From Archaeoglobaceae archaeon (GTDB lineage Archaea > Halobacteriota > Archaeoglobi > Archaeoglobales > Archaeoglobaceae), in assembly GCA_027064525.1 (NCBI GenBank), contig JAMOPJ010000035.1, positions 1-37,999 of the forward strand: a DNA stretch of 37,999 nt, given 5' to 3'. Of the stretch, positions 14,419 to 24,083 are shown piece after piece. Below the pieces are notes generated by a model. The model was not told the DNA's origin. It saw only the letters and a program-made list of their open reading frames with translations, and made no database searches. The stretch's first letter is position 1; the number at the start of each line of letters is the position of its first letter. A program made the translations under genes and the position numbers.

Positions 14419-14463
14419 TGATAACAATAAGCTTAATATTTTTGATGGCAAATTTTGTAAGTG

Positions 14464-15195
14464 ATGAGGCGACTTGTAATTCTGCTTTTGGCTTTAATCC
14501 TGCTGGGTTGTGCTGGACAGAAGGTCGAAAAGGTTGATCCCCATGAGATACTCTCTAAGGCTGAAAGAGCGATGGTCTCCACAGACTTGGATGCCAAAGC
14601 AACATTTGAAATGAATCTCAAATCACCCAAGTTTACCGATTACACGCAATACGATCTGAGAGTTGTTAAGTTGAATAACACGACCAAGATATTCATCCTA
14701 AGCTACGAATACAACACGACAGATTCCTCTTTAGCTGAAACACACAAGAAAATGAAAGTAGCCTTAAAAGACGCTTGGATTCTCGATGAGGGTGATTACT
14801 TTTACGTTTACACGCCCAATCTGAAATACATGAATGATAAGGTAGGCAAATATAAACCAGCTGACTCTTTGCCCAAATACAGATACATTCCAATTGTAAC
14901 GTGCTTGGACATTGCTAAGACTTTTACAAATGCAAAAAACGTCAGTTTGGCTGAAGAGGATGAGAACTACTATGTAGTAGCGTATCTGCTCCAGTATCCT
15001 GACATTGCATTTGCCAAAGTTGCCAACGTGAAGGTCTGGATATCCAAAGCGGATTACATGCCGGTAAAGGCTGAGATCTCGGCGAACTTCGGCCAGACTT
15101 CGATAAAGATGACCACGGAGCTCAAAAGCTACAAGACAGAGAGTGTGAAGTGCGACATGTCCCTAAAGAGGTTAAGTGTTGTCGAACGTTACTGA
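14464..15195 (+). CDS. lipoprotein, LolA/outer-membrane-lipoprotein-sorting-like
   Basis: A 243-aa exported protein. The signal MRRLVILLLALILLGCAGQ has a lipobox LLGC. The mature part has the LolA-like pattern: SKAERAMVSTDLDAKATFEM, repeated beta strands (TTKIFILSYEYN; DAWILDEGDYFYVYTP), KVWISKADYMPVKAEIS and a last amphipathic strand. Such proteins are common in Archaeoglobales and haloarchaea; without an outer membrane the role is not lipoprotein sorting and is unknown. GCTTAATATTTT about 30 bases upstream suggests a leaderless start; a GTG one codon earlier is possible. The end overlaps the convergent ArlF/G-like gene by 24 bases. Confidence 0.8.
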   Translation: MRRLVILLLALILLGCAGQKVEKVDPHEILSKAERAMVSTDLDAKATFEMNLKSPKFTDYTQYDLRVVKLNNTTKIFILSYEYNTTDSSLAETHKKMKVALKDAWILDEGDYFYVYTPNLKYMNDKVGKYKPADSLPKYRYIPIVTCLDIAKTFTNAKNVSLAEEDENYYVVAYLLQYPDIAFAKVANVKVWISKADYMPVKAEISANFGQTSIKMTTELKSYKTESVKCDMSLKRLSVVERY

Positions 15196-15621
15196 AGATT
15201 TCCATTCCAAATTTTTATATCGCACCCTTACCCACACTTTATCGCCCTTCTTCAGCACTCCAAAAGAACATTTCGCAAGGTTAAAGTAGCCATATTGTCC
15301 GAACTTCCATAAGTCACCTTTCTTCGAGAACACACCTCCAACACCGTGGGTTTTTGGAATTCCCACAGCTTTAACTGGAAGACCTTTAAGCGTTAACGTG
15401 TTTTTGCTGGTAGATACGATCACAACGACATCTTTTAGCTTTAAATCGTCTCCGATGTTTGTTATCGTAACTCTCTGAAGGTTCGAAACGTTTCGAGCTG
15501 AGACTTCGAATCTCAACGCTTTGTGCTCGTATTCTGGTGGCTTGAAGTCCCAATTCGAGATCGTAATGGAAATCGCTACGGTTGCGAAGATCAACAGAAA
15601 GGTTGCAAAAACGGCCTTCAA
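15172..15621 (-). CDS. ArlF/ArlG-like membrane-anchored beta-sandwich protein of the pilus locus
   Basis: A 149-aa protein starting at TTG 15621, which overlaps the upstream stop (TTGA) and follows GAGGGAT. One N-terminal hydrophobic helix (FATFLLIFATVAISITI) anchors an external beta domain: RFEVSARNVSNLQRVTITNI, LKDVVVIVSTS and KGDKVWVRVRYK. The pattern 'single helix then NIGD-containing sandwich' resembles archaellum stator proteins ArlF and ArlG and pilin-like sandwiches; there is no class III cleavage site, as in ArlF/G rather than pilins. Last gene of the minus-strand secretion operon. Homology is inferred from pattern, not alignment. Confidence 0.6.
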   Translation of the reverse strand: MKAVFATFLLIFATVAISITISNWDFKPPEYEHKALRFEVSARNVSNLQRVTITNIGDDLKLKDVVVIVSTSKNTLTLKGLPVKAVGIPKTHGVGGVFSKKGDLWKFGQYGYFNLAKCSFGVLKKGDKVWVRVRYKNLEWKSSVTFDNT

Positions 15622-16172
15622 ACTATATCCCTCGAAGTGTCGATCTCAAGAACGCTCCTTTCGGTCTTAAACCTAACGTAGCTCGACAGCGATTGTCCGC
15701 CGATCATCTTTGGAATCGCAAACTTGTAAACGAACCTCTCGCCCATTCTTTCAGCCTCAACCAAAATTATTCCATTGCAAACGTATTTCAAAACGTTTAT
15801 AGTCTTTTCGTCGTAGTAATCCTTCAGAACAACGAGATAAACTATTAGGTTGTTTTTAATCGCCACATCTCTGATCTTGATTGCGTCCTCAATTCCGAAC
15901 GTGAACTCTACCAATACCTTGCAGTTCGCGAGCTTCTCCAAATCTTCCAACTTCTCGATTATTATTGCATTGAATCCTAAAATTCTGAGCTCCTCTTCAA
16001 CGATGTCCGGAGACTTGAGGGATGGAAGGTAGTAGTTTCCGTCGCTGAGGTTGTATATCAAAAGTTCTGGTGATGCCAGAGGGTCAACTAAGATCAAAAT
16101 CACCGATGGTGAGGGGAATCCTCCGATGGCTCTATCTATAACTCTGATTCCGCTCTTGACTAAATCAACGAT
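15618..16172 (-). CDS. KaiC/ArlH-like RecA-fold protein lacking the Walker A motif
   Basis: The reading frame has its first ATG/GTG/TTG at GTG 16103 (161 aa), but upstream in-frame sequence VDLVKSGIRVIDRAIGG matches the beginning of KaiC/ArlH domains. A strong GGGGGTG (16184-16178) ends 5 nt before ATC 16172, giving 184 aa; an ATC start is therefore proposed with caution. Where KaiC proteins carry G-x4-GK-T, this one has LILVDPLASPELL, so no P-loop. The equivalent of Walker B (VLVEFTFGIED) is also altered, while the last strands (GIILVEAERMGERFVYKFAI, IGGQSLSSYVRFK) keep the family pattern. It sits after ATPase and platform genes, as arlH neighbours arlI/arlJ. Probably a non-hydrolysing structural partner of the ATPase. 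Confidence 0.65.
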   Translation of the reverse strand: MVDLVKSGIRVIDRAIGGFPSPSVILILVDPLASPELLIYNLSDGNYYLPSLKSPDIVEEELRILGFNAIIIEKLEDLEKLANCKVLVEFTFGIEDAIKIRDVAIKNNLIVYLVVLKDYYDEKTINVLKYVCNGIILVEAERMGERFVYKFAIPKMIGGQSLSSYVRFKTERSVLEIDTSRDIV

Positions 16173-18076
16173 ACCAACACCCCCAGAGTAACTATCAGCA
16201 TGATTATCGAATGCTTGATTCCGCTCAGCGGGTCTCCTTCACCCATCACTCCGGCAACTATTCCGGAGAACAGTCCTTGGAATAAAGTGGCTTGGCTCAT
16301 AACCCATATCAGCTCGTCCTTGCTGACAGTCTTCTTGAAAATTCCACCACCGGACTGGAACATCGACGGGAAGAACTTCGTGAACAGCATATACATTATG
16401 CCCAAGAATGCGAAGAACGCTATGTAAATTATGATCACGTAGATCAGCATGCTTATTTTCCTTTCCCTCGCAAGCGTTCTTTCGAGCTCGGCATCCCTCG
16501 CACACAGATGTAAAGCTTCGGTCAGATCTCCTCCGATTCGCAAAACGTCCATCAAAACTACAACGACCCTTGTCAACGCTGGAACTTTGAGTCTGTTGCT
16601 GAACTTCGCAAAAGCTTCAACCAATCCGGCACCCCACTCTACATCTCTCTGCATCTTATTGACTTCTTCGTATATCCCTCCCTTTCCAGTCTCTGCAACT
16701 ATCTCGATCGCCTGCTGAAGCGTAGCTCCGGTAGCACATATTCCGGCTAAATCTTTCAGAAACTCCGGTATCTGCTCCTTGATTCTGCTCAGCCATCTCT
16801 TCTTCATTTCGTGGAAGAATGATAGAGGAGCTAAGGCGATTATTATGGCAATTACGACTGCAAATTCGGGACGGATCGCGTGGATTGCCAAAATCAAGTA
16901 TATTAAAGCGACGGGGATGGAGAATACCAGCGAATAAATCGGTTGTTCTCTGATAACGTGAAGGGGAGCTTCCAGAAGCTGGAGACTCTTTTTCTTCTTC
17001 AAAGCCCTAACGAACCTCTGGTAGAGCTCGCTTCTCTGAACCTCTTCCGTTGGCTCCATCCTCTCCTCCTCAACCTCAAGGATCGCAACTCTCTCTGTGC
17101 CCTTTGGTGTTATGAAGTAGATGAGGCCAGCGAAGGAAATCGATCCTAAAGGAACCATGATGTAGGCGAGGGCATACATCGTCGAGATATCTCCGCTACC
17201 CATCGCAAGCATTATGCTCTCGATTATGAATAGGAAGAGTGGAGTAGCCACGGCTGCGGTAACGTAAGCTTCCGCAAGCAAAGCGAGCGTATCCAAAAAA
17301 CCTTTCTGTTCGACTCTGGCCTTTTCCGCGTATTGCTCCGATTTTCCAGCCAAGAATACCGATATGTCTCCACCGCTGTCTATTGTTGTAAGCAAACCGC
17401 TGATAAGCTCCTTTAGAGTTGGGGATGGCGTTATGTCGTAAAGCTCCATCATAGCTGAATGAAGATCCATACCAAAGAACTCCATGTGATAGACGACGAA
17501 CTGAAACTCCCTTGCGACCTCACCATACGTTTCCTCATGGTTCGCGAGTGAGTAGATGATGTCGAGCACGCTCACTCCTCCTCTGCTCAAGGCGAACATG
17601 TAGTTCACGGCGTATGGCAACATCCTCTCGATCTCTCTCTTTCTCTCATCGACCTTTATTGAAGGATAAAGCAAGAATAGGCCATAGACAAGGTAGTAGA
17701 AGAGAGTTGTAAAGAGAAGAATTATGATAACCATCAAGACGTAGTTTCCAACGTCTCCGAGGCTTATCGTTATCTTCGGTAAGGAGGGAAGACTTATGGG
17801 CAAACTGTAGGGAACTTCGGGCTTGTAAACGTTCGTGAATATCTTCATCAGCTGAGGTTTTATGAAGGGATAAACGATCATCCCTGTTATCGCGCCAAAA
17901 ACGGCTGAGATTACACTATACAGCTTGGCTTCAGCCAAGTAGTAGTCGTAGGTCTTAGGAATCCTCGCCGATTTGAGAAGGCGATCTAACTTCGCATACT
18001 TCGATTTCTCGGCCTTTAGCTTTTTTCCGAAAATCGAATACGCCAGCCTGCTTATCTTAGCTTCTGGCGGCTTCAT
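16160..18076 (-). CDS. type IV pilus/secretion platform membrane protein (TadC/GspF/ArlJ family)
   Basis: A 638-aa polytopic protein forming the membrane base on which the secretion ATPase acts. It contains two T2SF-type modules: residues about 150-290 (MLPYAVNYMFALSRGGVSVLD ... SGGDISVFLAGKSEQYAEKA) and about 450-575 (QIPEFLKDLAGICATGATLQQ ... IGGDLTEALHLCARDAELER), each followed by membrane helices, plus helices near the N-terminus. Double-module proteins of this size are typical of euryarchaeal pilus loci. ATG 18076 overlaps the ATPase end by 20 bases. The TAG stop at 16160-16162 overlaps the proposed start of the ArlH-like gene. Confidence 0.93.
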   Translation of the reverse strand: MKPPEAKISRLAYSIFGKKLKAEKSKYAKLDRLLKSARIPKTYDYYLAEAKLYSVISAVFGAITGMIVYPFIKPQLMKIFTNVYKPEVPYSLPISLPSLPKITISLGDVGNYVLMVIIILLFTTLFYYLVYGLFLLYPSIKVDERKREIERMLPYAVNYMFALSRGGVSVLDIIYSLANHEETYGEVAREFQFVVYHMEFFGMDLHSAMMELYDITPSPTLKELISGLLTTIDSGGDISVFLAGKSEQYAEKARVEQKGFLDTLALLAEAYVTAAVATPLFLFIIESIMLAMGSGDISTMYALAYIMVPLGSISFAGLIYFITPKGTERVAILEVEEERMEPTEEVQRSELYQRFVRALKKKKSLQLLEAPLHVIREQPIYSLVFSIPVALIYLILAIHAIRPEFAVVIAIIIALAPLSFFHEMKKRWLSRIKEQIPEFLKDLAGICATGATLQQAIEIVAETGKGGIYEEVNKMQRDVEWGAGLVEAFAKFSNRLKVPALTRVVVVLMDVLRIGGDLTEALHLCARDAELERTLARERKISMLIYVIIIYIAFFAFLGIMYMLFTKFFPSMFQSGGGIFKKTVSKDELIWVMSQATLFQGLFSGIVAGVMGEGDPLSGIKHSIIMLIVTLGVLVSLI

Positions 18077-19784
18077 ACTCCTCTACCATCTTGAAAACTT
18101 CCTCCGGATTGGCATGATATGCTTTTATGAATCTCAAGAACTCGTGGGCAGTGATACCTTTTTCTACCATATACTCTAAGATCACTCTCCTTTTTTCGAA
18201 CTCCTCTACGAGCCTTCTTTCATCCCAAGCCTTGAACAGCATTATGTCTCTCATGACTTTCGAGCTCCAGACATCGTTGAGTAGGAATCGATGCGAATCT
18301 GTCATCGGATCCCATTTGAATATCGTCATCGTCTTTATGTTCTTGGTAACCGGATCTATCTCCGTGATCTCCGCGATCTCCAAGTTCCTCCTAACTTTTC
18401 TTCCTCCCACAAACGTCTGAGCCTGAACGCTGACTATGTCCAAAGCGGAGATCATCGAACGCGGAACGCTCAGCGGTGGATATTCGAGTCTGTGAATCGC
18501 TGCCTCAACCGAATCTGCATGGAAAGTTGAGAGGGTCGTATGGCCTGTGCTCATAGCCTGGAAGAGGGTTTGGGCTTCTCTTCCTCTGACCTCACCGACT
18601 ATTATGTATTCCGGCCTCTGCCTCAACGCAGCTCTTAGCAGATCATACATGTCGATTTTACCCCTCTCACCCTCTGTGAAGCTCTCTCTCGTTACCGCAG
18701 GGATCCAGTTCATGTGAGGGAGTTTTAGCTCTCTCGTATCCTCTATGGTGACTATCTTGGCGTTGAGCGGGATAAAGAGAGCTACAGCGTTCAAAGAGGT
18801 AGTCTTACCGCTTGCAGTTCCACCTACAAAGAGCATGCTCTTTCCATTCTCCGCAGCGAGCCAAAGGTAGGCCATCTGCTCTGCGGAGAACGTTCCCCAC
18901 CTGATCAGATCGACGGGGGTGATCAAGACCTCTCTGAACTTTCTTATCGTGAATGTGCTACCTCTCGTCGTAACATCCTTGCCCAACGTTAGCTGAATCC
19001 TGCTCCCATCTGGGAGAGTGGCATCAACGAGCGGGTTAGATGTTGATATGTGCTTCCCACTTCGCTGGGCGAGTCTTATCACAAAGGAATCGAGTTCTCT
19101 TCTGTCGAACTTTATGTTCGTTTGCATGTTTCCGTAGTTCCAGTGATAGACGAAGATAGGAATGTTCCAGCCATCGCAGGATATGTCTTCGATATATGGA
19201 TCTCTCATTATCCCATCGATCTTGTAAAACCCTATGAAGTCTCTCCTTATGTAGTAGAAGAACTTGTGGAAGGTCTGCTTGTCCACATAGAGATCGTATT
19301 CTTCCAAAACCTCTTCAAGAGCTTTCTCAAGTGTTCTCTCCTTGTCCGTCTTTTTGGTTTCGGAAACCTTGCCGTATACGAGCTTGTTTCGAACGAGTTC
19401 CTTCACTTCATAAAGAAGATATCTCTCAGCCTTATCGAGCAACGGTTCTGAGAGGAAGTAAAGATGATCGTTTGTTTCCTTGCTGAAGAGAATGAAAACC
19501 TTTGCGAATGGCCTATAAACCCAGTATTCCTCCACGATTTCATAACCGCTTGGGAAGGAGGTATCCAAGAACTCCTCAATCGTTCCGTATTTAGCTACTT
19601 CCCTAACCTGCTTGAAGAGTTCGGAAATTTCCTCAACTTCGATCTCTTTAAGAACGTCCGTAATATCTTCTAAAACTTTATCCGAAATCTTATCTGGAGC
19701 TTTAACTTCACTAACCACTTCCACAAGCTTCTGTTTTGATACCCTCTTGGGCATGATACGTTTAACCTTACCTTCTTCAGCCAT
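18057..19784 (-). CDS. type IV pilus/secretion ATPase (GspE/TadA/ArlI family)
   Basis: A 575-aa cytosolic motor ATPase powering pilin assembly. Walker A VGGTASGKTTSLN lies near residue 318; the Asp box TIEDTREL, Walker B EYIIVGEVRGREA and His box STGHTTLSTFHADS follow in the right order. The N-terminal 200 residues are a lineage-specific domain rich in charged helices, and DATLPDGSRIQLTLG is the usual strand before the ATPase core. ATG 19784 (MAEEGKVKRIM) is preceded by GATGAGGGGAAAGTT, an SD-like run. It begins the core of the minus-strand operon after the 156-aa anchor protein. Whether the product builds pili or a secretion fibre cannot be told. Confidence 0.95.
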   Translation of the reverse strand: MAEEGKVKRIMPKRVSKQKLVEVVSEVKAPDKISDKVLEDITDVLKEIEVEEISELFKQVREVAKYGTIEEFLDTSFPSGYEIVEEYWVYRPFAKVFILFSKETNDHLYFLSEPLLDKAERYLLYEVKELVRNKLVYGKVSETKKTDKERTLEKALEEVLEEYDLYVDKQTFHKFFYYIRRDFIGFYKIDGIMRDPYIEDISCDGWNIPIFVYHWNYGNMQTNIKFDRRELDSFVIRLAQRSGKHISTSNPLVDATLPDGSRIQLTLGKDVTTRGSTFTIRKFREVLITPVDLIRWGTFSAEQMAYLWLAAENGKSMLFVGGTASGKTTSLNAVALFIPLNAKIVTIEDTRELKLPHMNWIPAVTRESFTEGERGKIDMYDLLRAALRQRPEYIIVGEVRGREAQTLFQAMSTGHTTLSTFHADSVEAAIHRLEYPPLSVPRSMISALDIVSVQAQTFVGGRKVRRNLEIAEITEIDPVTKNIKTMTIFKWDPMTDSHRFLLNDVWSSKVMRDIMLFKAWDERRLVEEFEKRRVILEYMVEKGITAHEFLRFIKAYHANPEEVFKMVEEYEAARS

Positions 19785-19803
19785 AACTTTCCCCTCATCA
19801 CAA

Positions 19804-20274
19804 TTATGATACTATACTCTTTATCATCTCTGTAGTTTTGTCCTTAATAATCTTTTTTGCTATCCTTCTGGCACTCCTGACATCAACGGGTCTGTCGGAC
19901 TTTATATAGATAAAGCCGTTTTCAAGTTTTACAAAAGTTTCGCATTTATCCGATTCGACCACCACCCTATCCGCATACGGAAAAACGTAGAATGGATCGA
20001 CGAGCGTCTCCTTTCCAGTCGTATAAACTATCTCACCGAAACCGTTGGCTATTACGATCTCGTCGAACTTTCTATCCTTTTTCTCCTCTTCCTCATCTTC
20101 GATCTTCTCGAACTCTTCGAGCTCTTCTTCGATCTCCGCAAGAACACCTTTTGCCTTTAGATCTTTGAGTCTGACCACTTTAATTTCAGATTCGCTCTCC
20201 TTCCTTCTTTTTATGATTAGAATGATTATCGCAACAATTAAGATGATTAGGAGAAGCATCAGGGGAATATCCAT
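19804..20274 (-). CDS. membrane-anchored protein with acidic coiled coil, first gene of pilus operon
   Basis: A 156-aa protein: an N-terminal helix (IPLMLLLIILIVAIIILII) followed at once by KRRK, so the body is cytosolic; a Glu/Lys coiled-coil (about residues 48-70, EIEEELEEFEKIEDEEEE); then an alpha/beta domain (FDEIVIANGFGEIVYTTGKE, DRVVVESDKCETFVKLENGF, SARRIAKKIIKDKTTEMI). The soluble part faintly resembles roadblock/longin-type dimer domains, but I would not assign it. Its place ahead of the ATPase suggests a tether between membrane and motor. Divergent from the first pilin-like gene over about 55 bases. Confidence 0.7.
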   Translation of the reverse strand: MDIPLMLLLIILIVAIIILIIKRRKESESEIKVVRLKDLKAKGVLAEIEEELEEFEKIEDEEEEKKDRKFDEIVIANGFGEIVYTTGKETLVDPFYVFPYADRVVVESDKCETFVKLENGFIYIKSDRPVDVRSARRIAKKIIKDKTTEMIKSIVS

Positions 20275-20329
20275 GATAAAATGATACCAATTAGCTTTAT
20301 TTAATATTTACCCTTCGATGCAAAGCTTT

Positions 20330-21061
20330 ATGTTCTTTAAAAGCGGAAGTTGTTATGTGAATTCGAAGGGACAGATGAGCGTCGATCTCCTTATAGCTGT
20401 GGCGATAATGGTTCTGTCGATAACGATGGCATCCTATTACGTCATCTCAGCCTTCGTTCCCTATTCAAGTAGGGATATCGATCTCCAAGCTTCAGCTTAC
20501 AGAATCGCAATGATTCTGAGCGAGGATGGAGGTCTCTGGGCTACCGGAAACCAATTGCTCGAGTCGGATTGGGCTGTTAAGGTTCTGCAAGATATGAATC
20601 ATGGAGACTACCAAGATATCGCCGATAGTCTGAAAAGGATAGGGCTGGCGAACACCTCCACGACTTATCTGACCAAGCTGAGTTATGAGGTCAAAATTCC
20701 ATGTTACTTGAATGAAACTAAGGTTGATCTTTTTTTCAATTACGATCTGTGGAATAGAACTTGGAACTCCACTACATTGGTTAACCAGTATGATAACTGT
20801 CTAGATTATCTAGCAACACTTATAGGGCTAAACTCTACGATCAAACACTATCGCTACAATATATCCATTTGTGATATGGGGGGTCATATCGTGAATAACT
20901 GGACGATAGGCTATCCCTTATACGTCAATGGAGAGTTCATCCCCAAAGAGTTTGGAAAGTTCGAGAGGATCGTCGTGATTGATTGTGATTACGATCCAAA
21001 TGTAAATAAATCTCAAGATCTCGCAAAATCGCTGAGAAGACTCGTAGTTTACGTGTGGTGA
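20330..21061 (+). CDS. pilin-like protein 1 (class III signal peptide)
   Basis: A 243-aa exported protein. The prepilin-peptidase site is NSKG followed by QMSVDLLIAVAIMVLSI, the canonical archaeal class III signal: basic, Gly, then Gln and a hydrophobic helix that stays on the mature protein. ATG 20330 would be leaderless (TTATTTAATATTTA 25-30 bases upstream). GTG 20357 (MNSKGQ...) with GGAAG upstream would give a more compact leader, 234 aa. The external domain has several N-glycosylation sequons (NTS, NETK, NRTW, NSTT, NISI, NWTI) and four or more cysteines. The first of five consecutive pilin-like genes; probably a minor component or adhesin given its size. Confidence 0.82.
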   Translation: MFFKSGSCYVNSKGQMSVDLLIAVAIMVLSITMASYYVISAFVPYSSRDIDLQASAYRIAMILSEDGGLWATGNQLLESDWAVKVLQDMNHGDYQDIADSLKRIGLANTSTTYLTKLSYEVKIPCYLNETKVDLFFNYDLWNRTWNSTTLVNQYDNCLDYLATLIGLNSTIKHYRYNISICDMGGHIVNNWTIGYPLYVNGEFIPKEFGKFERIVVIDCDYDPNVNKSQDLAKSLRRLVVYVW

Positions 21062-21066
21062 TAAAC

Positions 21067-21510
21067 ATGAACAAGAGAGGCCAGATGTATACGCTCGAAG
21101 CTCTGCTGGCATCTCTGATAATTTTCGGAGTAGTCATATTCGCCATCAACGCATCACCTCAGTTCGGAACGGAAACGAAGGAGTTTACAAGTTTCCAGTT
21201 AAAGAAATACGCCGATGACATTTTGGAAATATTGGATTTAGAGAGGAGTTATCCCCCAACAGAAGAGCATACAAGTCTACTTTCAGAGTGGCTTGAAGGA
21301 AAAAATATTATTGATTGGTCGGCAATTGAACAAAATTTAAGAGAAAATCTTAGTATCATGATGCACGTTGAAGTTTTAGCTCCAAACGGAACTGTGGTAT
21401 ATTGTTATGGACCACCACCTCCGGAAGGGGCAGTTTCGAGCTTTAGGGTTGTTCCTGTCTCGACTTCTCCTTACGCTTACGAGGTTAGACTCTATCTGTG
21501 GTTCGTGTGA
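21067..21510 (+). CDS. pilin-like protein 2 (class III signal peptide)
   Basis: A 147-aa protein starting at ATG 21067 with GTGGTG six bases upstream; an in-frame GTG at 21055 is rejected because it precedes the SD. The leader is MNKRG followed by QMYTLEALLASLIIFGVVIFA, a textbook class III signal with the conserved Glu at position +5 of the mature helix region. The remainder includes FTSFQLKKYADDILEILDLE, a Pro-rich segment (YGPPPPEG) and a C-terminal VRLYLWFV. Short and probably a minor or major subunit of the fibre. Confidence 0.83.
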   Translation: MNKRGQMYTLEALLASLIIFGVVIFAINASPQFGTETKEFTSFQLKKYADDILEILDLERSYPPTEEHTSLLSEWLEGKNIIDWSAIEQNLRENLSIMMHVEVLAPNGTVVYCYGPPPPEGAVSSFRVVPVSTSPYAYEVRLYLWFV

Positions 21511-21519
21511 GGTGATCTT

Positions 21520-21888
21520 ATGAATGATAGAAGAGGTCAGCTCCTCCTGCTTTCGGGGATGTTGATCGCGATGAGCGTCGCTCTGATTTCGCTATACCTC
21601 ACAACAGCATCGATTTCTGGTTATAGGGTTTCGTATTCTCCTTGGGATCTGCCTTATTACGAGATGAGAATGAGCGTTTATGAGGCCACGAGAGCTATAA
21701 AACTGTATAAAAGTTCAGATGTGATTTCGGAATTTTATCAAAATATGTCCAAGATATACGCGAGACATGGCTACTTCGTAGTTGCGCAGGCTAACAAAAC
21801 GGCTTCAGAAGATCTATACGAGCTCAATCTGACGTTTAAGACTGATAGAGTTAAGTTGGAGGTGAAGAAGAATGTTCCTACTTACTGA
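21520..21888 (+). CDS. pilin-like protein 3 (class III signal peptide)
   Basis: A 122-aa protein; GAGGTG ends 5 nt before ATG 21520. Leader MNDRRG is followed by QLLLLSGMLIAMSVALISLYL, again a basic-Gly-Gln cleavage site with a 20-residue helix. The helix lacks the early Glu of copies 2 and 5, as in some minor pilins that start assembly. The external part is short and helical (MRMSVYEATRAIKLYKSSD) and ends DRVKLEVKKNVPTY. Overlaps the next gene by 17 bases. Confidence 0.8.
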   Translation: MNDRRGQLLLLSGMLIAMSVALISLYLTTASISGYRVSYSPWDLPYYEMRMSVYEATRAIKLYKSSDVISEFYQNMSKIYARHGYFVVAQANKTASEDLYELNLTFKTDRVKLEVKKNVPTY

Positions 21889-22300
21889 CAGAAGAGGAGT
21901 CTCATCCTTGCTATTTATAATAATGACAATGTCTGCCTTTATCATGTTCATAGCTACCCTCCAGCTCTACAACGTGATGACAGATGCTCCGAAAAAAGTC
22001 GTTATAAGGCATCAGTTCGACGATATAGGTAACATACTCGCGAACGACGTTGTTGGGATTGTTCTTTCTCTTCCTCACGGTGGAAAGATAGAATACACAG
22101 AAATTCTGCCTGTTGACGTAGCTGGGCAGGGCTATTGGGTAGAGCTTAACTCGAGCAAGGAGTCTGTCAACGTTTCAACTTTCGGATACACGGCAAGGTA
22201 TATAATTGGTGGAATCAAATATGAGATAAACATGAGTTCGAGCATAAACGCTACTTCAAGCGGTGGTAAGATCGTTATCAAAGCGAACAGGCTGATATAG
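21872..22300 (+). CDS. pilin-like protein 4
   Basis: A 142-aa protein from ATG 21872, inside the end of the previous gene, with GGAGGTG seven bases upstream. Leader MFLLTDRRG is followed by VSSLLFIIMTMSAFIMFIATL; the residue after Gly is Val rather than Gln, as in haloarchaeal minor pilin-like families. The exterior is beta-rich with short Gly turns (SLPHGGKIEYTE, YIIGGIKYEINM) and sequons NSS, NVS, NMS, NAT. It may well be an assembly-priming subunit rather than the main fibre; that is inference. Confidence 0.78.
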   Translation: MFLLTDRRGVSSLLFIIMTMSAFIMFIATLQLYNVMTDAPKKVVIRHQFDDIGNILANDVVGIVLSLPHGGKIEYTEILPVDVAGQGYWVELNSSKESVNVSTFGYTARYIIGGIKYEINMSSSINATSSGGKIVIKANRLI

Positions 22301-22314
22301 TGGAGGTGTCCCGG

Positions 22315-23079
22315 CTGAACGGTAAGGCAGTTTCTGAGATTCTTGGATACATCTTAGTTTTGTCTGTGGTAGTTGCTACGATCACTGTTATCTATGCGGC
22401 CGGGATGCCGGCGATAAGAAGTCAGCAGGATATCGCGGTATTTAGAAGTATGGAGAATACCTTTTACGTTTTGCAGAACGTTGAGAGGTTAGTCGCCTAT
22501 AATATAACTCCAGAAAAGTCCGTTAGCGTTAGAGTTGAGGAGGGGTCTATTGCCGTTATTCCGGACTGGGGTTGGATAAACATAACTATTAAGCAAGGGC
22601 CTGTTCCTCCTACTACTATTAAATATGGTGTAATTGTCTATATTAGTAAAAATAATAAAGCAATTATTCTTGACAACGGAGCAATAATTGAATGTTATGG
22701 CGATCGCTGTTATATGGTGTCCAATCCGAGAATATTGAAGTGGAATAACTCAACAACATGTAATTTATATATTTCTGTGATAAATGTTTCAGGAGATCTG
22801 AGCTTTACTGGATATAAGTCTATTACGTTCAAGAATACTAACTCCATCATAATGCAACCAACTACTAAGTCTAAGGCTCAAACTGTTAATATTACAATTA
22901 ATATAGTTGGAGCCGATAAACTTGGACTAAATGCTACAGCCATAGAAGAAGCGTGGGTTAACTATCTTAAAAGCATTGGTGGTCAGGAGATTTGGGCAGG
23001 GCCAGGAAAATCGGCAAAATTTGATTATAAAAATATAAGTATTATAGTTGGTTGTTATAACATAACAGTCTCAGGCTGA
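22315..23079 (+). CDS. pilin-like protein 5, apparent CTG start
   Basis: A 254-aa protein. GTG codons at 22300 and 22306 are in frame, but the first lies before, and the second inside, the strong SD GGAGGTG (22302-22308). CTG 22315 sits 6 nt after it and yields MNGKAVSEILGYILVLSVVV, the standard 'short leader, basic-Ala, V-S-E-x-L-G' form of archaeal pilins with the conserved Glu. The exterior has repeated beta strands and about eight N-glycosylation sequons (e.g. NITI, NNST, NVSG, NATA, NITV), plus three C-terminal-half cysteine pairs. The middle of the gene is clearly more A/T-rich (22600-23060), often seen in fast-evolving surface genes. Confidence 0.8.
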   Translation: MNGKAVSEILGYILVLSVVVATITVIYAAGMPAIRSQQDIAVFRSMENTFYVLQNVERLVAYNITPEKSVSVRVEEGSIAVIPDWGWINITIKQGPVPPTTIKYGVIVYISKNNKAIILDNGAIIECYGDRCYMVSNPRILKWNNSTTCNLYISVINVSGDLSFTGYKSITFKNTNSIIMQPTTKSKAQTVNITINIVGADKLGLNATAIEEAWVNYLKSIGGQEIWAGPGKSAKFDYKNISIIVGCYNITVSG

Positions 23080-23326: not shown

Positions 23327-23698
23327 CTACTTTATGATTACAAATCTTAGACCGTATTCTCTAAAGATTTCAAAATCTGAATCACATGTGTAGAGAATCT
23401 TTGAGTGAGCTATTGCTGAAGATGCTATGAGCAAGTCCTTAACCTTTGGAACTTTTCCCTTTGATTTTAAATCTCTGTAAATCTTACCGGCGAACATCGC
23501 ACTTTTTTCATCGAATTCCAACTTTGGAATTCTTTCCAAAAATATTTCTTCCCTATCTTTTAGGCTTCCACAATAAAGTTCAAACAGCGTTATGACGGAA
23601 ATGCCATAAACTGTAGTCTCATCCTTCAATCTGTCCAAAATCCTTTTGTTTCCTTTGAATAACTCAATCACTATGCTTGTATCAAGGATTGCATCCAT
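23327..23698 (-). CDS. vapC: VapC-family PIN-domain toxin (RNase)
   Basis: A 123-aa PIN nuclease. Acidic metal-binding residues appear in [12 protein letters not shown] (Asp6), LFELYCGS (Glu), [14 protein letters not shown] (Asp) and CDSDFEIF (Asp). Targets of VapC toxins are tRNA, rRNA or mRNA, not predictable here. ATG 23698 lies within the end of vapB, with GGAGGCT five bases upstream, so toxin translation depends on antitoxin translation. The two genes form one module expressed towards the zinc-ribbon gene. Confidence 0.92.
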
Positions 23699-23892
23699 TT
23701 TTCAGCCTCCTTAGTCTCCTTTTTCAACTTCTCAACATCCTTTTCATCTCTCGTTCCAAATGCAATCATCAAAAGTTCCCAATTCCCTTTCTTTTCGATT
23801 AAATCTCTTATAACTTCGGAAAAACTTCTCTTACCCTTTATTCTTACGAGCTTTTCATAAACATCGTCCGAAATGCTAATCGTTTTTGACAT
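23671..23892 (-). CDS. vapB: VapB-family antitoxin
   Basis: A 73-aa protein from ATG 23892 ([20 protein letters not shown]). The N-terminal ribbon-helix-helix-like or AbrB-like DNA-binding part resembles the archaeal VapB antitoxin group that starts '[11 protein letters not shown]'; the C-terminal acidic helix ([19 protein letters not shown]) would wrap the toxin. Two further ATGs upstream (23901 and beyond) are in frame, but TATTTAAA at 23913-23920 puts transcription start about at 23890, so a leaderless start at 23892 is preferred. The gene overlaps vapC by 28 bases. Confidence 0.87.
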
Positions 23893-23896
23893 ACTA

Positions 23897-23920
23897 TGCA
23901 TGTATGCACAGATATTTAAA
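23897..23920 (-). promoter_or_regulatory. vapBC promoter with near-palindromic operator candidate
   Basis: TGCATGTATGCA at 23897-23908 is a near-perfect palindrome (one central mismatch pair) between the TATA box TATTTAAA (23913-23920) and the vapB start. VapB or VapBC commonly binds such sites to repress its own promoter. Position and symmetry are seen; binding is inferred. Confidence 0.5.
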
Positions 23921-24083
23921 ATTGTTACTGCACGGAGATCTCCATTACCAATATTCAATAGCTTTAGTTGATGCCAGTGAAATCTATTAGCAGATGTTCT
24001 ATAGGTATTCGTCTAAGCCAAGACTTGTAAGAATCTTCATGCCATCTATTTTTTAAACCCATCCACTCGACATCATTTGATCC

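Follow-up and report, generated by a model that had tools for sequence, protein, structure and literature searches.

In archaella, ArlH docks under ArlI, stimulates this ATPase when ATP-bound and leaves it when autophosphorylated (PMC8978795, PMC12024892). Reviews describe ArlH as unique to archaella and recruited "from an unknown source", with other type IV filaments being assembled without an ArlH homologue (PMC12024892, PMC9087265). KaiC-family ATPases were reported in the neighbourhood of archaeal pilus genes, those of Clade 2 systems among them, and their genes were described as co-transcribed in Methanomicrobia (Makarova 2016, PMC4858521). Therefore, the association of KaiC with pili as such is not new. 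That study treats these proteins as KaiC-family ATPases, and its text mentions no family lacking the P-loop as a component of the motor operon, which is the feature of the locus described here. The family in question, DUF7125, was not found by name in the literature searched, and a P-loop-less family with the ArlH fold as a recurrent part of pilus motor operons appears to be new within that literature.

The locus lies in a window of 37,999 nucleotides, the whole stretch of DNA that was analysed, from a genome of 1.89 Mb whose nearest relatives are Archaeoglobaceae. Four genes follow each other in overlapping order on the minus strand from 19784 down to 15172. The first encodes a type IV pilus assembly ATPase of 575 aa (18057-19784), which matches T2SSE with an E value of 3.7e-39 and has a canonical Walker A motif, GGTASGKTT. 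The second encodes a platform protein of 638 aa (16160-18076) with two TadC/PilC-like T2SSF modules (PF00482, two stretches, E 1.2e-31). They are followed by the genes of a 184-aa protein (15618-16172) and a 149-aa protein (15172-15621, TTG start), and a weakly LolA-like lipoprotein is encoded convergently with the operon on the plus strand (14461-15195). In a pilus locus of Methanophagales, a relative of this lipoprotein is encoded at the corresponding position.

Five pilin-like genes run in the opposite direction (20318-23079, plus strand). The first, second and fifth match DUF7287 (20318-21061, E 1.8e-6), DUF7288 (21055-21510, E 5.7e-8) and DUF7289 (22300-23079, E 1e-18) above the curated cut-offs, and the matches of the third to DUF7261 (21520-21888, E 0.022) and of the fourth to DUF7266 (21872-22300, E 8.8e-4) are weak and below them. 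An earlier sequence-only reading had named a GspE/ArlI-type ATPase, a double-module platform protein, the two small minus-strand genes behind it and the five divergent pilin-like genes, and all of these were found in place. The spacer of 55 bp that it gave between the two groups holds when counted from the second in-frame ATG of the first pilin gene; from the first ATG, the spacer is 43 bp. The same reading had passed over a further minus-strand gene (19804-20274), which precedes the ATPase gene and separates it from the pilin genes. It encodes a 156-aa protein with an N-terminal membrane helix, an acidic linker and a small alpha/beta domain, and was found in all four genomes of the genus in which a contig covers the place. 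Nothing similar to this protein was found in the family libraries searched, and comparison with the ArlCDE-like proteins of the same genome gave no signal. The layout is complete in two other genomes of the genus and lacks the 149-aa gene in one relative; in a fourth relative, whose contig is truncated, the 149-aa gene is missing too. Immediately after the pilin genes comes a pair (23327-23958) that, judged by eye, resembles a VapB/VapC toxin-antitoxin of the PIN type.

By its gene content, the locus encodes a type IV pilus of the euryarchaeal Clade 2 type and not an archaellum. The T2SSE ATPase, the TadC-like platform protein and the pilin genes occur together, the combination that marks a euryarchaeal type IV pilus. 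Like the Clade 2 pili of the PilB4 type (PMC4858521), the window combines ATPase and TadC genes with its own pilin set, and KaiC-family ATPases have been reported near such loci. Against the ArlI model, the window ATPase scores 420 bits, under the cut-off of 550 bits, whereas the ArlI of the same genome (contig C38) reaches 830 bits. The latter belongs to a complete archaellum operon away from the window, with genes for ArlF/G-like proteins, ArlH, ArlI and ArlJ, and its normal ArlH passes the ArlH cut-off. A tree of linked ATPases places that of the window with those of Alkanophaga and Methanophagales-type archaea (98/97), far from ArlI.

The 184-aa protein was modeled by AlphaFold with 68 relatives (pLDDT 90.4, pTM 0.86). 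The model is of the RecA type, and disorder is confined to its C-terminal tail. Although a PDB sequence search with the single protein gave nothing meaningful, the best structural match of the model in the PDB is FlaH/ArlH (4yds; Foldseek E 3.5e-11, TM-score 0.73 on the query), followed by KaiC-like proteins. The KaiC/ArlH-like nature proposed from the sequence is thus borne out by structure prediction. The protein passes the gathering threshold of Pfam DUF7125 (PF23442) with 30.9 bits against 29.1 (E 1.8e-7), and DUF7125 is matched by all 68 relatives. The ArlH model is the commonest NCBIfam match, being hit by 64 of the 68 (best E 2e-13); however, the 184-aa protein itself scores 14.5 bits against the ArlH equivalog NF052589, below the curated cut-off of 215 bits. 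A tree of 66 proteins separates DUF7125, ArlH and the archaeal KaiC-like ATPases into three clades (100/99, 100/95 and 99/92). The program flagged meeting long branches, so only the clades themselves, and not their mutual order, are read from the tree. Since the clades are separate, the 184-aa protein is ArlH-like in fold but is not an ArlH. It shares with ArlH/FlaH the common RecA/KaiC fold in a single domain, and both are encoded beside an ATPase of the PilB/ArlI family and a platform protein. ArlH has an intact Walker A motif and is encoded in archaellum operons, whereas DUF7125 is a clade of its own that lacks the P-loop, mostly has the C-terminus DTSRDI[AV] and is found beside pilus ATPases. 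We refer to the DUF7125 protein as a pseudo-KaiC.

The loss of the P-loop is a property of the whole family. The pattern GxxxxGK[ST] occurs in none of 132 distinct DUF7125 members. The column of the Walker A Ser/Thr is Glu in 129 of them, and nearly all have Pro, Ser or Ala in the lysine column; the window protein reads VDPLASPE at this place. Both residues are kept in 31 of 31 ArlH and 20 of 20 KaiC-like proteins. The idea that the window carries a degenerate ArlH therefore has to be given up, as the protein stands in another clade and the replacement is common to the family. Apart from the P-loop, the Walker B Asp is retained in 124 of the 132 members, and the C-terminus ends exactly in DTSRDI[AV] in 108 and in a DT[SA][RK]DI-type sequence in 117. 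The window protein differs from the rest of the family in its length (184 versus about 230 aa) and in a Glu at the Walker B Asp, shared by its subfamily. Within the genus, the gene has a dN/dS of 0.04-0.06, which indicates strong purifying selection. A decayed, non-functional gene was rejected on the basis of this value and of the conserved, family-wide replacement; a uniform and conserved change of this kind points to an altered function and not to decay. The orthologue in G015, of genus g4, is split by an in-frame TAA and looks broken (L049:9250-9889).

A strongly conserved and undecayed replacement, uniformly Glu, could also mean that the loop binds a metal ion, a basic residue of a partner or another small ligand, so that the protein would be a ligand sensor of the pilus motor and not a passive adaptor. 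We consider this improbable because no ligand is indicated and the window subfamily has Glu at the Walker B Asp as well.

The start of the 184-aa gene is unusual. No ATG, GTG or TTG start is found upstream of the conserved N-terminus of the frame in five genomes of the genus; therefore, a -1 frameshift at the conserved GGGGG, which would fuse the platform protein with the 184-aa protein, was considered. A conserved ATC (16172-16170) is located where the g4 orthologues have ATG, and 5 nt before it lies a Shine-Dalgarno-like GGGGGTG (16178-16184, minus strand), identical in all five genomes, which pairs with the anti-Shine-Dalgarno sequence at -12.3 kcal/mol and is the strongest site in the stretch. 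The putative AUC start and this site (16170-16184) fall in the overlap with the platform gene in all five. Because of the alignment of ATC with ATG and the strong site 5 nt upstream, the frameshift is less likely, and an AUC start at 16172-16170 is the simplest reading of the nucleotide sequence. Such a start perhaps keeps the expression of the protein low.

At least eight further archaeal families show the same succession of ATPase, platform and DUF7125 genes. Among 39 loci outside Archaeoglobales, which were picked by DUF7125 score alone, 15 from eight families have the ATPase and platform genes beside DUF7125 on the same strand, and in several of these the pilin genes run the opposite way, as in the window. 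The order is also found in Alkanophaga, Methanophagales, Methanoxibalbensis and ANME-2. Over 149 loci, some of them fetched twice, the commonest neighbours of DUF7125 are the ATPase and the platform gene (35 each). Since a genome of 2000-3500 genes has only a few such ATPases, we estimate that adjacency by chance would be well under 1%. Pairwise distances between the DUF7125, ATPase and platform proteins of 25 loci correlate with r of 0.63-0.66, and none of 5000 permutations was as high, although this partly reflects shared ancestry. Some near-complete genomes that lack ArlH and have no ArlI above the cut-off carry linked loci as well (G061, 97% complete, and G073, 99%, both in one contig; G217, 100%; G102, 94%). 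The genome of the window has a second pilus locus (contig C31) with its own DUF7125 gene adjoining the ATPase gene, in the order DUF7125-ATPase-platform, and a third pilus-type locus (contig C41) with no DUF7125 copy beside it.

The linkage with the ATPase thus extends far beyond Archaeoglobales; however, within most of this order the gene lies apart from the motor genes, as it does in Halobacteria and Methanosarcinaceae. Haloferax volcanii is among the species that have a DUF7125 gene. In genus g4, the closest orthologue (50% identity) is beside htpX. Therefore, the protein may function in trans or together with a different partner. These stand-alone genes, together with the published proposal that KaiC-like ATPases near pili are regulators of expression (PMC4858521), favor a regulator that works away from the motor, for example in gene regulation or as a signalling hub, and is merely co-transcribed with the motor genes. 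Such a role seems rather unlikely to us, since the phosphorylation cycle of KaiC regulators depends on the P-loop, which is missing here, and the position 3' of the platform gene recurs across eight families.

The fold, the loss of the P-loop, the disordered but conserved tail, the selection and the placement 3' of the ATPase and platform genes are all computed from the data. By analogy with ArlH, we infer from them that the 184-aa protein probably serves the pilus motor as an ArlH-like adaptor that does not depend on nucleotide, and that the pseudo-KaiC is probably a third conserved part of the motor module besides the ATPase (PilB) and the platform protein (TadC/PilC). It would bind to the PilB hexamer in the way that ArlH binds to ArlI and, once docked, support or gate pilus assembly. 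It would not be switched by ATP or autophosphorylation but would stay permanently in one nucleotide-independent state. The conserved DTSRDI tail may contact PilB, the platform protein or a second regulator. The earlier suggestion of a non-rotating fibre with an ArlH-type regulator was a fair reading, considering the KaiC/ArlH fold and the conserved linkage with the ATPase.

Such an adaptor role would be at odds with the published statement that filaments which do not rotate have no ArlH homologue. A broader proposal, which we make tentatively and regard as possible rather than probable, is that non-rotating pili of Halobacteriota-type archaea have a counterpart of ArlH, namely an ATP-blind subunit of the PilB-platform motor with the KaiC fold, and that ArlH is the ATP-binding relative of older partners of filament motors. 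If this is true, ArlH was not an invention for rotation. The conserved ArlH-fold protein in pilus motor operons, which is also present in genomes free of archaella, makes the origin and the role of ArlH testable, and a natural version without the P-loop separates the docking role of the fold from the ATP and phosphorylation switch.

The 149-aa protein has an N-terminal hydrophobic helix and a predicted beta-sandwich. Its gene occurs in three of the five genus genomes, and the other 52 genomes of the order lack it; in G036 and G037, the lipoprotein gene lies directly next to the 184-aa gene. The protein has no match in Pfam, NCBIfam or, by sequence, the PDB. Its profile gave hhalign probabilities of 0.5-0.6% with ArlF and ArlG (sets of 14-16 sequences), a comparison of low power with only three 149-aa sequences, and the control of ArlF against ArlG gave 99.4%. 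The low-confidence model (pLDDT 66) matches archaellins (E 6e-4) as well as FlaG (E 1e-3). The N-terminal helix and the Ig-like sandwich predicted in this model would resemble those of ArlF/ArlG and archaellins; the protein has no sequence signal of these families and is limited to the genus. Its gene evolves under constraint (dN/dS 0.17). We take the protein for a pilin-like accessory that is specific to the lineage and belongs to the same operon, not for evidence of a stator, and by sequence its proposed likeness to ArlF/ArlG was not upheld.

In its stronger form, the sequence-only reading combines degenerate forms of ArlH and ArlF/G into an evolutionary intermediate between pilus and archaellum. 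The ArlH-like fold of the 184-aa protein and the weak similarity in fold of the 149-aa model to ArlG fit this idea. However, the former protein belongs to a separate clade, the latter is encoded by a sporadic, genus-limited gene with no ArlF/G sequence signal, and a complete archaellum is encoded elsewhere in the genome. Therefore, there is no positive evidence for an intermediate machine, and the window ATPase falls short of the ArlI cut-off; we regard this origin as highly improbable.

Several observations were made on other loci. A Methanophagales pilus island (L157:1-12523) combines prepilin-peptidase-like, Roadblock, MinD-like, ATPase, platform and pseudo-KaiC genes with a convergent gene for the same lipoprotein that is encoded in the window. 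A contig titled "Candidatus Nitrosotalea" (L156) bears a pilus locus of the Methanophagales type and probably comes from a mislabelled genome. A family of 218-267-aa proteins with no Pfam match and no relation to KaiC by profile is encoded near the pseudo-KaiC gene in g4 and in G014 (L058:8127-8930; L051:8353-9009). This family is multicopy, and a query from it matches five places in the genome of the window.
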